Origin: Bacillus sp. FSL K6-3431
GTDB taxonomy: Bacteria; Bacillota; Bacilli; Bacillales; Bacillaceae_C
Direction of reading: 5' to 3'
Assembly (NCBI RefSeq): GCF_038002605.1
Contig: NZ_JBBOCT010000001.1
Span: forward strand, 868,001 to 932,000
DNA: 64,000 nt
The notes under the pieces are model-generated. The model saw only the letters and a program-made list of their open reading frames with translations, did not search any database and was not told the DNA's origin. Of the stretch, positions 20,827 to 57,627 are shown piece after piece; positions within the stretch are counted from its first letter, which is position 1; each line of letters begins with the position of its first letter. Made by a program: the position numbers and the translations under genes.

Positions 20827-20967
20827 AAGAAAACCACTCTCCTCAGAAAGTGGTTTAGTAATTACGTATACAATAATCACGTAATTCATCTAAACTACTT
20901 CCCTACGCTAGTTCAAACTAGATCAGGTTCAAAGGGTTACTTCTCAGCCATAAAGGCGCCCCCAGTA
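20827..20967 (-). promoter_or_regulatory. TPP riboswitch 2 (proximal) with terminator
   Basis: On the minus strand the aptamer (20893-20967) shows the conserved GGGGGCGCC, GCTGAGAAG, ACCCTTTGAACCTGATCTAG and GCGTAGGGAAGT segments. The expression platform is a hairpin at 20831-20856 (AAACCACT ... AGTGGTTT, then TTTTC). TPP binding should terminate transcription before tenA. Confidence 0.95.
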
Positions 20968-21016
20968 GATTAATAGATTTGTATATGTGTTATTTCTAGA
21001 CGTTTTTATTCAAACA

Positions 21017-21171
21017 AAACCCCCCACCTAAATAAATGTTAAGTGGTGGGTTGATAGGTAAAATTAGTTAGTCAACCTTATACCACTTCCCTACGCCAGT
21101 ATTAACTAGATCAGGTTCAAAGGGTTTAGAACAGCCGTTCCTTCTCAGTCTTATTAAGACACCCCTAGTGC
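21017..21171 (-). promoter_or_regulatory. TPP riboswitch 1 (distal) with terminator
   Basis: A second complete aptamer (21082-21171) with AGGGGTGTC, GACTGAGAAGG, ACCCTTTGAACCTGATCTAG and GCGTAGGGAAGT. It has a longer P3 arm than its partner and its own terminator hairpin (21017-21052; CCCACCACTTA ... AGGTGGGGGG, then TTTTG). It lies in series with the proximal TPP switch, giving two-step control of the operon. Confidence 0.94.
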
Positions 21172-21314
21172 GAATATTCATACATATCATAGCATGTATA
21201 TTTATTTATGCAAATCAAATGAGTTATTTTTTATTAGGTGCATTTTATCTTGCTGAAAGTCGTGAGAAATCAAAGTTTCTCACGAATATATCAACAATCA
21301 TTAGTTCATAACAT

Positions 21315-23907: not shown

Positions 23908-24066
23908 AAAAAAAGCCCTCTTCGACAAGAAGAAGGCCCTTTTACATAAAAGGGTTTCTTCTTATCTTTCAAGTTGTTTCCAACTTGTTGGATGTAGCAC
24001 CTTTCCGTCAAACGGTGGTTGCTGAGGTGTCGCAGGGCCATTTCCCTCAACCTCTCTTGATAAGAA
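23908..24066 (-). promoter_or_regulatory. SAM-I riboswitch (S-box) of metI
   Basis: On the minus strand: TTATCAAGAGAGGTTGAGGG, GGCCCTGCGACACCTCAGCA, ACC...GACGGAAAGGTGCTA and GATAAGAAGAAACC. These are the conserved S-box elements. The expression platform is the hairpin at 23908-23943 (AAGGGCCTTCTTCTTG ... GAGGGCTT, then TTTTT). High SAM should stop metI expression. Confidence 0.93.
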
Positions 24067-34326: not shown

Positions 34327-34478
34327 TAAAACCCACTTCTACATGATTAAGAAGAGGGTTTTAAACATTTTTTCTCTTCTTATCTATTAAGCTTTCGCTT
34401 ATTGGAATTGGCACAGTACTATGCAGTCTGTTGCCGAGGATTCATTGGGCCACTCCCTCAACCTCTCTGGATAAGATC
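34327..34478 (-). promoter_or_regulatory. SAM-I riboswitch (S-box) of the sulfate operon
   Basis: Minus-strand S-box elements: TTATCCAGAGAGGTTGAGGG, GGCCC...CCTCGGCAACAG, AAGCGAAAGCTTAAT and GATAAGAAGAG (34373-34478). The expression-platform hairpin AAACCCTCTTCT ... AGAAGTGGGTTTT lies at 34328-34362. SAM should switch off sulfate assimilation. Confidence 0.92.
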
Positions 34479-52889: not shown

Positions 52890-54077
52890 TTATACAATAT
52901 TGTAATAACTGCAAACTACTTGTCCTACTGATTTTGCAGCGACAAGCAATGCATCTTCATCAATGTCAAATTTCGGATGATGATTGAAGTATGCTGTGTC
53001 GACGCCTTTTGGTTTACAGCCAATAAAGAAAAAACAACCGGGAATTTTTGCCGCATAGTAGGAAAAATCTTCTGATCCAGAAAACTTTGGAAATTCAATG
53101 ACATTCTTTATATCCGGGTCATTCATCGACTTTAGGCTCGCTACAACATCTGCTGTGATAGCAGGATCATTATATAAAGGAGGATAATCTGAAGTGTACG
53201 TTAGCTCGCACTTCACTCCAAATTCAGTCTCGATTCCTCTAGCGATGCGATGAACTTCTTTATCTATCTTTTCCTGGGTGTCACTATTCATGTAGCGCAC
53301 ATCGCCTTCAAGAGTGACACTGTCTTTTATTACGTTGAAAGAACCTTTTCCATCAAAAGAACCGATCGTAACAACCCCAACCTCAAAAGGATCTAGACGT
53401 CTACTAATAATTGTTTGGACAGCGGTGATAAAATGAGAGCCAGCGACAATTGCATCATTCGCCAAATGTGGGGACGATCCGTGACCACCAACCCCTTGTA
53501 TGACTAACTTAAAATACGTCCTCCCTGCCATAGCAAAGCCGCTTCGGTATCCAACAACCCCCGTTGGATCAGTTGGGAATAAATGAGTCCCATACACAGC
53601 GTCTAAATCATCAAGCGCACCAGATTCAACAATACTTTTCGCTCCGCCTGGTGGTGTCTCCTCTGCATGTTGATGTATAATTTTAATTGTACCCGGAATT
53701 TGGTCCTTTAATTCGATCAGACAATCCGCAAGTATTAACAAATACGCTGTATGTCCATCGTGACCGCATGCATGCATGACACCTTCATTTTTAGATTTAA
53801 ATGGCACATCTGTTTCTTCTACAATCGGCAACGCATCGAAATCCGCACGCAGACCAATCGTTTTCCCAACCTTACCTCCATTAATCGTGACGATAATACC
53901 GAAGCCATTCCCAACATTGGTTTGAACTTCTACCTCTTTACCTTTATAAAAATCAACGATATATTGGGCTGTTTTTTCCTCATGAAAGCTAAGCTCTGGG
54001 TGTTCATGCAAGTATCTGCGAATGTCGACCATTTCTTCTTTTCTTTCTTCCAACATTTTTAATAGTTGATTCCTCAT
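52890..54077 (-). CDS. M20 family amidohydrolase (N-acyl amino acid hydrolase)
   Basis: Metal-dependent peptidase/deacylase of 395 residues from ATG 54077, behind AAAGGGAGAGTGT; upstream in-frame ATGs lack one. M20D motifs are YLHEHPELSFHEEKTAQYI, MHACGHDGHTAYLLILADCL (metal Cys-Gly-His-Asp-Gly-His), HAEETPPGGAK (acid/base Glu pair), VGGHGSSPHLANDAIV and FSGSEDFSYYA. Related Bacillus proteins (YhaA, YtnL) release amino acids from N-acyl forms; the substrate here is unknown. Confidence 0.92.
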   Translation of the reverse strand: MRNQLLKMLEERKEEMVDIRRYLHEHPELSFHEEKTAQYIVDFYKGKEVEVQTNVGNGFGIIVTINGGKVGKTIGLRADFDALPIVEETDVPFKSKNEGVMHACGHDGHTAYLLILADCLIELKDQIPGTIKIIHQHAEETPPGGAKSIVESGALDDLDAVYGTHLFPTDPTGVVGYRSGFAMAGRTYFKLVIQGVGGHGSSPHLANDAIVAGSHFITAVQTIISRRLDPFEVGVVTIGSFDGKGSFNVIKDSVTLEGDVRYMNSDTQEKIDKEVHRIARGIETEFGVKCELTYTSDYPPLYNDPAITADVVASLKSMNDPDIKNVIEFPKFSGSEDFSYYAAKIPGCFFFIGCKPKGVDTAYFNHHPKFDIDEDALLVAAKSVGQVVCSYYNIV

Positions 54078-54451
54078 TTTTACACTCTCCCTTTGTCTGG
54101 TATATACCTTTATTAGGTGCATCATCATTTGTTCTATATCTATGATTATGAAGCATCATAATCATGATAGAAAGTAATGTAGGTGTAGCGAAAATGACGT
54201 TAGTACTGCTACCCTTAGATGTTGCCACTTTAACACTTCCAATAAAACTCAGAAATACCAATTATGTATTATCTACAAGTATTTGTGTAAAGATCCACGG
54301 CAATACTGGAAAATAGTGCCACTTATTGATTGAATAGCAGTTCAATTGCATCAACTATTATTCACGTCTTTAGTCTTGAAGTAATAAATAAGATGATCGT
54401 ATTTTCCATACAAATATATTAATTTTTATAATGTTAAGGTATAATATATGT
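54078..54451. other. Intergenic region with a possible membrane-protein tail relic
   Basis: A minus-strand frame (about 54135-54261) reads FLSFIGSVKVATSKG then NVIFATPTLLSIMIMML and may be a decayed transporter C-terminus. No start, ribosome site or family assignment. Confidence 0.3.
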
Positions 54452-54592
54452 AGAAACTCCATACATTTAAAAGACCGTTTCGATGCTATAACATCGAAAC
54501 GGTAACGCAATAGCTGGTTCCCTTTAGGGGATCGACACTCGTGAAGAATTAATCCACCTGAGCGCCTAACTCAAGGGTGGGTTATTTTTTTT
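54452..54592 (+). ncRNA. Predicted type I antitoxin RNA
   Basis: A plus-strand RNA of about 140 bases is predicted from a TATAAT at 54440-54445 (weak -35) to a terminator CCACCTGAGCGCCTAAC...GGGTGG followed by TTATTTTTTTT (54554-54592). An internal 11-base perfect hairpin, CCGTTTCGATG / CATCGAAACGG, lies at 54475-54501. The 3' end overlaps the end of the convergent toxin gene, the layout of TxpA/RatA and BsrG/SR4. Confidence 0.65.
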
Positions 54593-54665
54593 GGTTAAAT
54601 GACAGAATAGCAATAATTAAGCTTGCAAATGCAATCGCAAACATTAATGCTTGAAAAACTGTCAT
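54582..54665 (-). CDS. Holin-like type I toxin peptide (27 aa)
   Basis: A 27-residue single-helix membrane peptide, MTVFQALMFAIAFASLIIAI then LSFNQKK. It has a hydrophobic helix at about residues 5-22 and a short Lys-ending tail, matching the putative holin-like toxin (Hol_Tox) peptides of Bacilli. ATG 54665 follows AAAGGGGGTGTTGCTG. That ribosome site is buried in a hairpin (CATCCCC / GGGGGTG, 54671-54692). Further upstream, CTCAAGGGTGG (minus strand, 54709-54699) can pair with CCACCCTTGAG just after the stop codon, a 5'-3' long-range clamp. A convergent antisense RNA overlaps the 3' end. Confidence 0.75.
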   Translation of the reverse strand: MTVFQALMFAIAFASLIIAILSFNQKK

Positions 54666-54890
54666 CAGCAACACCCCCTTTCATTTGGGGATGGCCGACC
54701 ACCCTTGAGAAATCTCATGCCATTGCTCTATAATAATAACATAGACAAAACTAGAACACATGTTCCTTTTGGACTATTTTATTCATATATTGACCGTTAT
54801 TATGATGAATAGTAGGAATATTTATTTATATAATTAATTCGTATTATTTCCAAAAGCAACGCTTGGATTTTTTCTTAGCGTTGCTTGCAA

Positions 54891-55460
54891 CTATATTTCA
54901 TTACCAACTTTTGTTTTTTGTATACAATATAAGCCAGAAATATGTTTTGGAAGAGTAACTAAACCATGTGTTGGCTTAGAAAATGCGATATCTGCTAGAT
55001 CACGAGTCAACTCAGCCACGTCCATTGATTTCATTTCATCATGGCTAAAAAAGCCCGCACCATCGACCTCTTCATTATCTGGATGTGGATAGCCTTCTAC
55101 GTACTCCATGGAAAATACAATGTACACATTGTGCGTATCTCGAGGTTGATCTCTAAGTGCTATGATTCCATTCACTTTAGAGATAATACCCGTCTCTTCT
55201 AATACTTCCCGGATAATGCAATTTTCAATCGGTTCATGCTGTTCGATAAAACCTCCTGGATTAGTCCATAAACCTTTTCCAGGGTTTTGGGCTCGACGGA
55301 CTAGCAGGAGTTTTTCATCTTTTATAACTAGTGCGCCGACACCAATACTATAATCCCCCCAAAAAACAAAGGGACAATTTGTACATGCTTTTCGATTTTC
55401 TCCCCCTATGTTACGAATCTCCATTGGGTGACCACAAGATAAACAATAATTAGCTTCCAC
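54891..55460 (-). CDS. Nudix hydrolase with zinc ribbon
   Basis: Pyrophosphohydrolase of 189 residues from GTG 55460, supported by AAGGGAGAATACTAC; the longer frame to 55520 has no ribosome site. An N-terminal zinc ribbon is formed by CLSCGHPM and CTNCPF. The Nudix box reads GGFIEQHEPIENCIIREVLE, then ETGI, matching Gx5Ex7REUxEExGU. RDTHNVYIVFSMEYVEG follows. The architecture resembles NAD- or ADP-ribose-type Nudix enzymes of the YjaD/NudC-like group; the substrate is not certain. Confidence 0.88.
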   Translation of the reverse strand: MEANYCLSCGHPMEIRNIGGENRKACTNCPFVFWGDYSIGVGALVIKDEKLLLVRRAQNPGKGLWTNPGGFIEQHEPIENCIIREVLEETGIISKVNGIIALRDQPRDTHNVYIVFSMEYVEGYPHPDNEEVDGAGFFSHDEMKSMDVAELTRDLADIAFSKPTHGLVTLPKHISGLYCIQKTKVGNEI

Positions 55461-57476: not shown

Positions 57477-57504
57477 TGGAGTTAATCAAATAACTTAAAT
57501 GTTT

Positions 57505-57627
57505 TCTAGGGTTCCGCAATATGTGAGTTTGGTCTGGTCCGAGAGAAAACTCGCAGCTTTGCTGTGCCACGGAAGGATAAAAGCCTGGGAGAAACTGTTT
57601 TTAACAGTTATTTCCCAGGCTTTTTTT
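57505..57627 (+). promoter_or_regulatory. Guanidine-I (ykkC) riboswitch
   Basis: Conserved elements in order: CTAGGGTTCCGC, CTGGTCCGAGAGAAAACTC, GTGCCACGGAAGGATAAAAG and CCTGGGAGAAAC. The aptamer 3' part doubles as the 5' arm of a strong terminator (AGCCTGGGA...AACTG / CAGTT...TCCCAGGCT, then TTTTTT, 57583-57627). Guanidinium binding should prevent termination and turn on the exporter. Confidence 0.95.

Follow-up and report, generated by a model that had tools for sequence, protein, structure and literature searches.

Introduction

Sequestration of the Shine-Dalgarno (SD) sequence and a 3' overlap of 100-140 bp have been published for txpA, bsrE and bsrG (sections of PMC6562991), and RNase III cutting is described for the model system txpA/RatA (excerpts of PMC3531473 and PMC6562991). 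Besides its part in decay, the antisense RNA SR4 lengthens the SD helix of bsrG (excerpts of PMC6562991 and PMC7430163); antisense binding tightens the SD in the case of SR4 and not in that of SR5 (sections of PMC6562991). Here we describe a locus of Bacillus sp. FSL K6-3431 that lies in a window of 64,000 nucleotides (the whole stretch of DNA that was analysed; contig NZ_JBBOCT010000001.1, positions 868,001 to 932,000). It is very likely a type I toxin-antitoxin module of the BsrG/SR4 family, located on the chromosome of a Lederbergia-like member of the Bacillaceae, with a mechanism as published for bsrG/SR4. A limited literature search, from which absence is not implied, found no report of type I systems in Lederbergia.

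Predicted toxin gene and transcripts

The locus comprises the following features (positions in the window):

54741-54733, minus strand: predicted toxin promoter, an extended -10 of the form TG-n-TATTAT (family norm TG-n-TATAAT)
54726-54470, minus strand: predicted toxin mRNA of about 255 nt, BsrG family RF01412, with ends placed from promoter and terminator
54726-54719 with 54514-54507, minus strand: outer helix of the predicted fold, involving the mRNA 5' end
54709-54699 (CTCAAGGGTGG) with 54580-54570 (CCACCCTTGAG), minus strand: 11-bp 5'-3' clamp, pair probabilities 0.95-1.0
54693-54687 (CATCCCC) with 54678-54672 (GGGGGTG), minus strand: SD-masking hairpin, pair probabilities 0.97-1.0
54665-54582, minus strand: toxin ORF, 27 aa and stop, hydrophobic, with a match to Hol_Tox (PF16935)
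54503-54474, minus strand: intrinsic terminator of the toxin mRNA, a 13-pair stem followed by CTTTT
54440-54445, plus strand: predicted antitoxin -10 box TATAAT
54452-54592, plus strand: predicted SR4-like antisense antitoxin of about 141 nt, with inferred ends
54551-54583 (approximate stem) and 54585-54592 (T8), plus strand: antitoxin terminator

The minus strand at 54726-54478 matched RF01412 (BsrG; Rfam 15) over the full model (positions 1-259), scoring 120.8 bits where the cut-off is 55, with an E value of 3.9e-28, and BsrG is the sole toxin-antitoxin family above the Rfam cut-off in the window. The toxin mRNA, whose start was set near 54726 because of the extended -10 at 54741-54733, is predicted to fold at -106.3 kcal/mol (z -8.89), with none of 200 dinucleotide shuffles as good. 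In this fold, the mRNA 5' end GCAATGGC pairs with the segment directly before the terminator to form the outer helix. A scan of positions 54000-55200 found four terminator-like sites (0.4 expected) and five promoter sites (5.8 expected).

Most of this architecture had been proposed in an initial annotation made from the letters of the sequence, and it held. The 27-aa ORF lies on the minus strand at 54665-54582 as annotated; the masking of the SD by CATCCCC/GGGGGTG and the perfect 11-base pairing of the mRNA ends both have the high pair probabilities listed above and belong to helices that co-vary in the family; and the proposed terminator hairpin is present as the 13-pair stem with CTTTT. On the plus strand, a promoter-like box and a terminator frame the predicted RNA at about 54452-54592, and the predicted overlap of about 119-123 nt between this antitoxin and the 3' end of the toxin mRNA agrees with the proposed duplex potential of about 120 bases.

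The peptide passed the Pfam gathering cut-off of Hol_Tox (26.4 versus 23.3 bits, residues 1-23), the family with which the initial annotation had suggested comparing it, and missed the NCBIfam cut-offs of PepG1 (NF041589; 15.6 versus 70 bits) and ComI (NF052249; 11.8 versus 55 bits). Its suggestion of possible novelty for the peptide and the RNAs was not supported, as both fall in described families; novelty of the peptide was rejected, a peptide encoded on a Parageobacillus plasmid differing from it at 4 of 27 positions. The peptide has fewer replacement than silent changes: pN is 0.05 and pS 0.36 and 0.35 against L045 and L046, respectively, the best blastn matches, and the contrast is smaller against L041 (pN 0.10 versus pS 0.18), all of these figures being rough because RNA structure also constrains silent sites.

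Conservation and co-variation in relatives

The covariance search of relatives put forward in the initial annotation as a check yielded RF01412 matches at E 0.01 or better in 48 of 60 related genomes, and loci over the cut-off in 34 of the 60. The largest number of matches in a single related genome was 12 (G057); three of its loci (L049, L050, L051) encode an identical peptide, which suggests recent spread. Counts of peptides, complementarity, codons and promoters are based on 90 of the at least 93 over-cut-off matches (89 distinct loci), from which the weak matches L005 and L006 were excluded. Co-variation was assessed in a MAFFT alignment of 45 of the 90 loci, the window among them, selected so as to exclude near-duplicate loci and those that diverge most.

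Taken together, the clamp, the SD hairpin and the outer helix had 90.2% of cells paired in this alignment (shuffles 86.1 ± 0.3%; slid structures 40.5-53.8%), and both partners had changed in 16 of 28 pairs (8.1 ± 1.6 in shuffles). None of 500 shuffles reached the observed value on any of five measures and all slid controls were exceeded, in a test that involves loci related to one another and that leans towards the helices because the loci were collected with an Rfam model containing them. The SD hairpin had 94.6% of cells paired with both-side change in 3 of 7 pairs, the clamp 92.1% with both-side change in 5 of 11, and the seven-pair core of the outer helix 97.0% with both-side change in all seven; lengthening the outer helix by three further pairs is unsupported (36.3% of cells paired). 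In a count that does not depend on the alignment, 70% of the 90 loci had 5' and 3' pieces perfectly complementary over at least 8 nt, compared with 43% when pieces were swapped between loci and 2% after shuffling.

Most of ten aligned loci have an extended -10 (TG-n-TATAAT) directly preceding the toxin start, together with a TATAAT-like box that lies past the toxin terminator on the opposite strand. Near the model start, 87 of the 89 distinct loci have a toxin -10 that deviates by no more than one mismatch (shuffles about 52); these matches are most frequent at -12/-11 relative to the model start, and the TG extension was found in 79 of the 89, the shuffle control covering the -10 only. A second peak, of 27 matches, coincides with the model start, at which TACAAT is the reading in many loci, and the toxin box in actual use is therefore a prediction. 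The -10 of the window, TATTAT, departs from the family TATAAT, so that toxin expression could be weak. An antitoxin -10-like box was present in all 89 loci, but shuffles of this A+T-rich stretch gave about 75 of 89, so that clustering alone is informative: 56 matches lie 35-38 nt from the model end (38 nt in the window), and 34 form a second cluster at 14-16 nt.

Predicted antisense RNA and terminator overlap

The predicted antitoxin RNA was delimited by the TATAAT at 54440-54445 and the terminator ending in T8 at 54585-54592. It is predicted to fold at -47.1 kcal/mol (z -5.47; 0 of 200 shuffles as good). The sequence of the toxin 5' clamp arm recurs within the 3' arm of the antitoxin terminator, where the complement of the clamp 3' arm (54570-54580) also falls; the toxin mRNA thus contains a substitute for a portion of the antitoxin.

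On the other strand, the T8 corresponds to the last two lysine codons of the toxin and two bases of a glutamine codon, and 62 of the 80 toxins counted end in KK. The idea that this overlap of U-tract and lysines forces AAA codons was not retained: AAA accounts for 148 of 175 lysine codons (85%) among the five C-terminal positions of 80 toxins and for 588 of 786 (75%) in 40 long ORFs of the window, a mild excess that, among related loci, is not decisive. Nine of the 89 distinct loci were left out of the codon count because the script picked no ORF of 22-36 aa. Work on such an overlap was not found in a limited literature search, which does not imply its absence.

A separate observation concerns Bacillus methanolicus MGA3, for which a 43-aa 'BsrG' that contains VKGGLF is printed (excerpt of PMC4342826). 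This motif resembles the antitoxin-strand reading across the terminator in L030 and L035 (LKGGLFF), and the published MGA3 ORF, to judge from these fragments, may be on the wrong strand.

Paralogues and genomic setting

The genome (5.5 Mb, two contigs) contains four RF01412 loci over the cut-off and two further matches that are weak and partial (19.2 and 13.4 bits). The 19.2-bit match (L005:1501-1581; model positions 30-148; 81 matched bases) is perhaps a relic. Cognate toxin and antitoxin RNAs of the four paralogues gained -136 to -181 kcal/mol on co-folding, compared with -11.4 to -40.6 kcal/mol for the 12 non-cognate pairs. Non-cognate gains were largest in the following cases: the L004 toxin gained -40.6 kcal/mol with the window antitoxin, and the window toxin -33.0 kcal/mol with the L004 antitoxin (21 nt shared); the L003 toxin gained -30.5 kcal/mol with the window antitoxin, and the reverse pair -20.3 kcal/mol (24 nt shared). 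The window toxin mRNA is perfectly complementary to the L003 antitoxin at the clamp/terminator and to the L004 antitoxin in the outer-helix region. Cross-talk between paralogues is possible according to these models, with a predicted strength far below that of cognate pairing; that the four loci form a buffered network and not four independent switches, with antitoxins partly silencing the toxin mRNAs of other loci via the 21-24-nt complementarity, we consider unlikely.

The ORFs next to the locus, read by eye, resemble metabolic and membrane genes, without the look of a prophage. Among them is an M20-like gene, four of whose downstream neighbours are kept in L096 and L097 while its upstream gene is not. 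By blastn, the module was absent from all 79 M20-like-gene loci in other genomes (flanks of at most 3 kb), a search that a diverged copy could escape. The insertion site is therefore not shared within the searched flanks, and a conserved genomic position of the module was rejected.

Among plasmids and phages, tblastn with the window peptide gave no match, whereas DNA searches did find relatives. With the E limit set at 1, DNA matches were obtained in 232 plasmid records, Enterococcus accounting for 201 (the two Enterococcus rows among the matches listed covered just 21% of the query), and in nine phage records; one phage match (E 0.1, 11% of the query) is probably due to chance. All six copies fetched from the DNA-search matches exceeded the RF01412 cut-off. 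They stem from Mesobacillus, B. licheniformis, Parageobacillus and Halobacillus plasmids, from pBS72 and from phage SPbetaL8; the Halobacillus copy adjoins a ParA-family gene.

Elsewhere in the window, other RNA elements were recognised: two tandem TPP riboswitch aptamers about 100 bases apart (20883-20973 and 21071-21176, minus strand), two SAM riboswitches (23959-24066 and 34377-34477, minus strand; Rfam) and a Guanidine-I riboswitch (57495-57593, plus strand; Rfam), just downstream of which lie two ORFs that, by eye, resemble small multidrug-resistance-type transporters.

Proposed mechanism and alternative explanations

By analogy with bsrG/SR4, the minus strand would give rise to an mRNA of about 255 nt for a 27-aa membrane peptide. 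This mRNA would be nearly untranslatable, with its SD enclosed in a GC hairpin and its ends clamped by the clamp and the outer helix, and the SD hairpin may render it latent, as in bsrG/SR4 (excerpts of PMC6562991 and PMC7430163). The plus strand would yield an antisense RNA of about 141 nt, some 120 nt of which would overlap the mRNA 3' end. Once the RNAs had paired, RNase III would cut the duplex. The SD hairpin may in addition be tightened on antisense binding, as happens with SR4, or the antisense RNA may act through decay only, as SR5 and RatA do. Should the antitoxin fall behind, the peptide would be expected to insert in the membrane and disturb the envelope. The locus is genuine, well conserved and probably functional; we infer its transcription and toxicity, along with duplex formation and RNase III decay, from the literature on bsrG/SR4.

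The matches to RF01412 and Hol_Tox, the co-variation and the shared positions of promoter-like boxes sustain the type I toxin-antitoxin reading with a BsrG/SR4-like layout that the initial annotation had offered, and the co-variation of clamp and SD helix sustains its reading of the toxin mRNA as self-masking. The module reading is further favoured by the fold z values of both RNAs, the features shared with SPbeta bsrG, the pN/pS figures against L045 and L046, and the over-cut-off plasmid and phage copies; it is weakened by the TATTAT box, the lean of the co-variation test, the unsupported lengthening of the outer helix, the high rate of antitoxin boxes in shuffles, the small pN/pS contrast against L041, the unshared position and the scores below the PepG1 and ComI cut-offs. 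A bare reading of the sequence had thereby correctly picked out what is probably a genuine type I toxin-antitoxin locus, together with its RNA structure.

Short ORFs and promoter-like boxes are common, with five promoter sites found where 5.8 were expected, and a short hydrophobic ORF could in principle lie above unrelated palindromes by chance. The Rfam E value of 3.9e-28, the fold z of -8.9 and the co-variation refute this; four terminator-like sites for 0.4 expected also speak against it, and its probability is close to nil. It is also very improbable that the peptide has a non-toxin job, for instance as a ComI-like, competence-related membrane peptide, under an antisense RNA that is simply a regulator of the ordinary kind: a weak similarity to NCBIfam ComI exists (11.8 bits for a cut-off of 55), but the scores stay below the ComI and PepG1 cut-offs, and the RNA is built on the scaffold of bsrG, which encodes an established toxin (sections of PMC6562991).

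An intact ORF, a pS of 0.35-0.36 versus a pN of 0.05 against L045 and L046, and the integrity of the clamp, the SD hairpin and the terminators all argue against a domesticated or weakening BsrG-family copy, still recognisable but with expression or toxicity largely lost (a weak BsrE-type toxin or a relic). Such a copy nevertheless has a minor but real probability, given that the toxin -10 reads TATTAT and not TATAAT, that the neighbouring ORFs appear by eye to be metabolic or membrane genes and not prophage genes, that L005, a partial match of 19.2 bits covering model positions 30-148, lies in the same genome, and that bsrE is toxic only on overexpression (sections of PMC6562991). We prefer the BsrG/SR4-type module, which extends the BsrG RNA family to a further genus with a chromosomal example present in several copies.

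Comparison with known systems

The bsrG gene of SPbeta (NC_001884), which RF01412 found at 210.4 bits, has a 10-bp clamp where the window has one of 11 bp, and an SD hairpin of the same kind; its toxin ends in KKK and that of the window in lysines too, and the 3'-end antisense layout of bsrG/SR4 is also predicted for the window. Sizes differ (window values for the RNAs are predictions): BsrG has 38 aa and the window peptide 27 aa, SR4 180 nt and the window antitoxin 141 nt, and the bsrG mRNA 294 nt compared with about 255 nt (excerpts of PMC7430163). Whereas bsrG/SR4 resides in the prophage SPbeta, the window locus is chromosomal, and inspection of its neighbouring ORFs by eye showed no prophage.

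BsrE (30 aa) and BsrH (29 aa) are short toxins like the 27-aa peptide (excerpts of PMC7430163), although the peptide sequences of bsrE/SR5 and bsrH differ from that of the window; the SR5 overlap of 114 bp (same excerpts) compares with about 120 nt predicted here. In txpA/RatA of the skin element, a 3' overlap of about 120 nt and a sequestered SD resemble the prediction for the window (excerpts of PMC3531473 and PMC6562991), whereas TxpA, with 59 aa (excerpts of PMC7430163), is a long toxin of a type to which the 27-aa peptide does not belong. The plasmid copies of Parageobacillus, B. licheniformis, Halobacillus and Mesobacillus are full RF01412 matches like the window locus, but sit on plasmid records whereas the latter is on the main contig, and the copies of pBS72 and SPbetaL8, like the window, combine a 27-aa hydrophobic ORF with a BsrG-family RNA.
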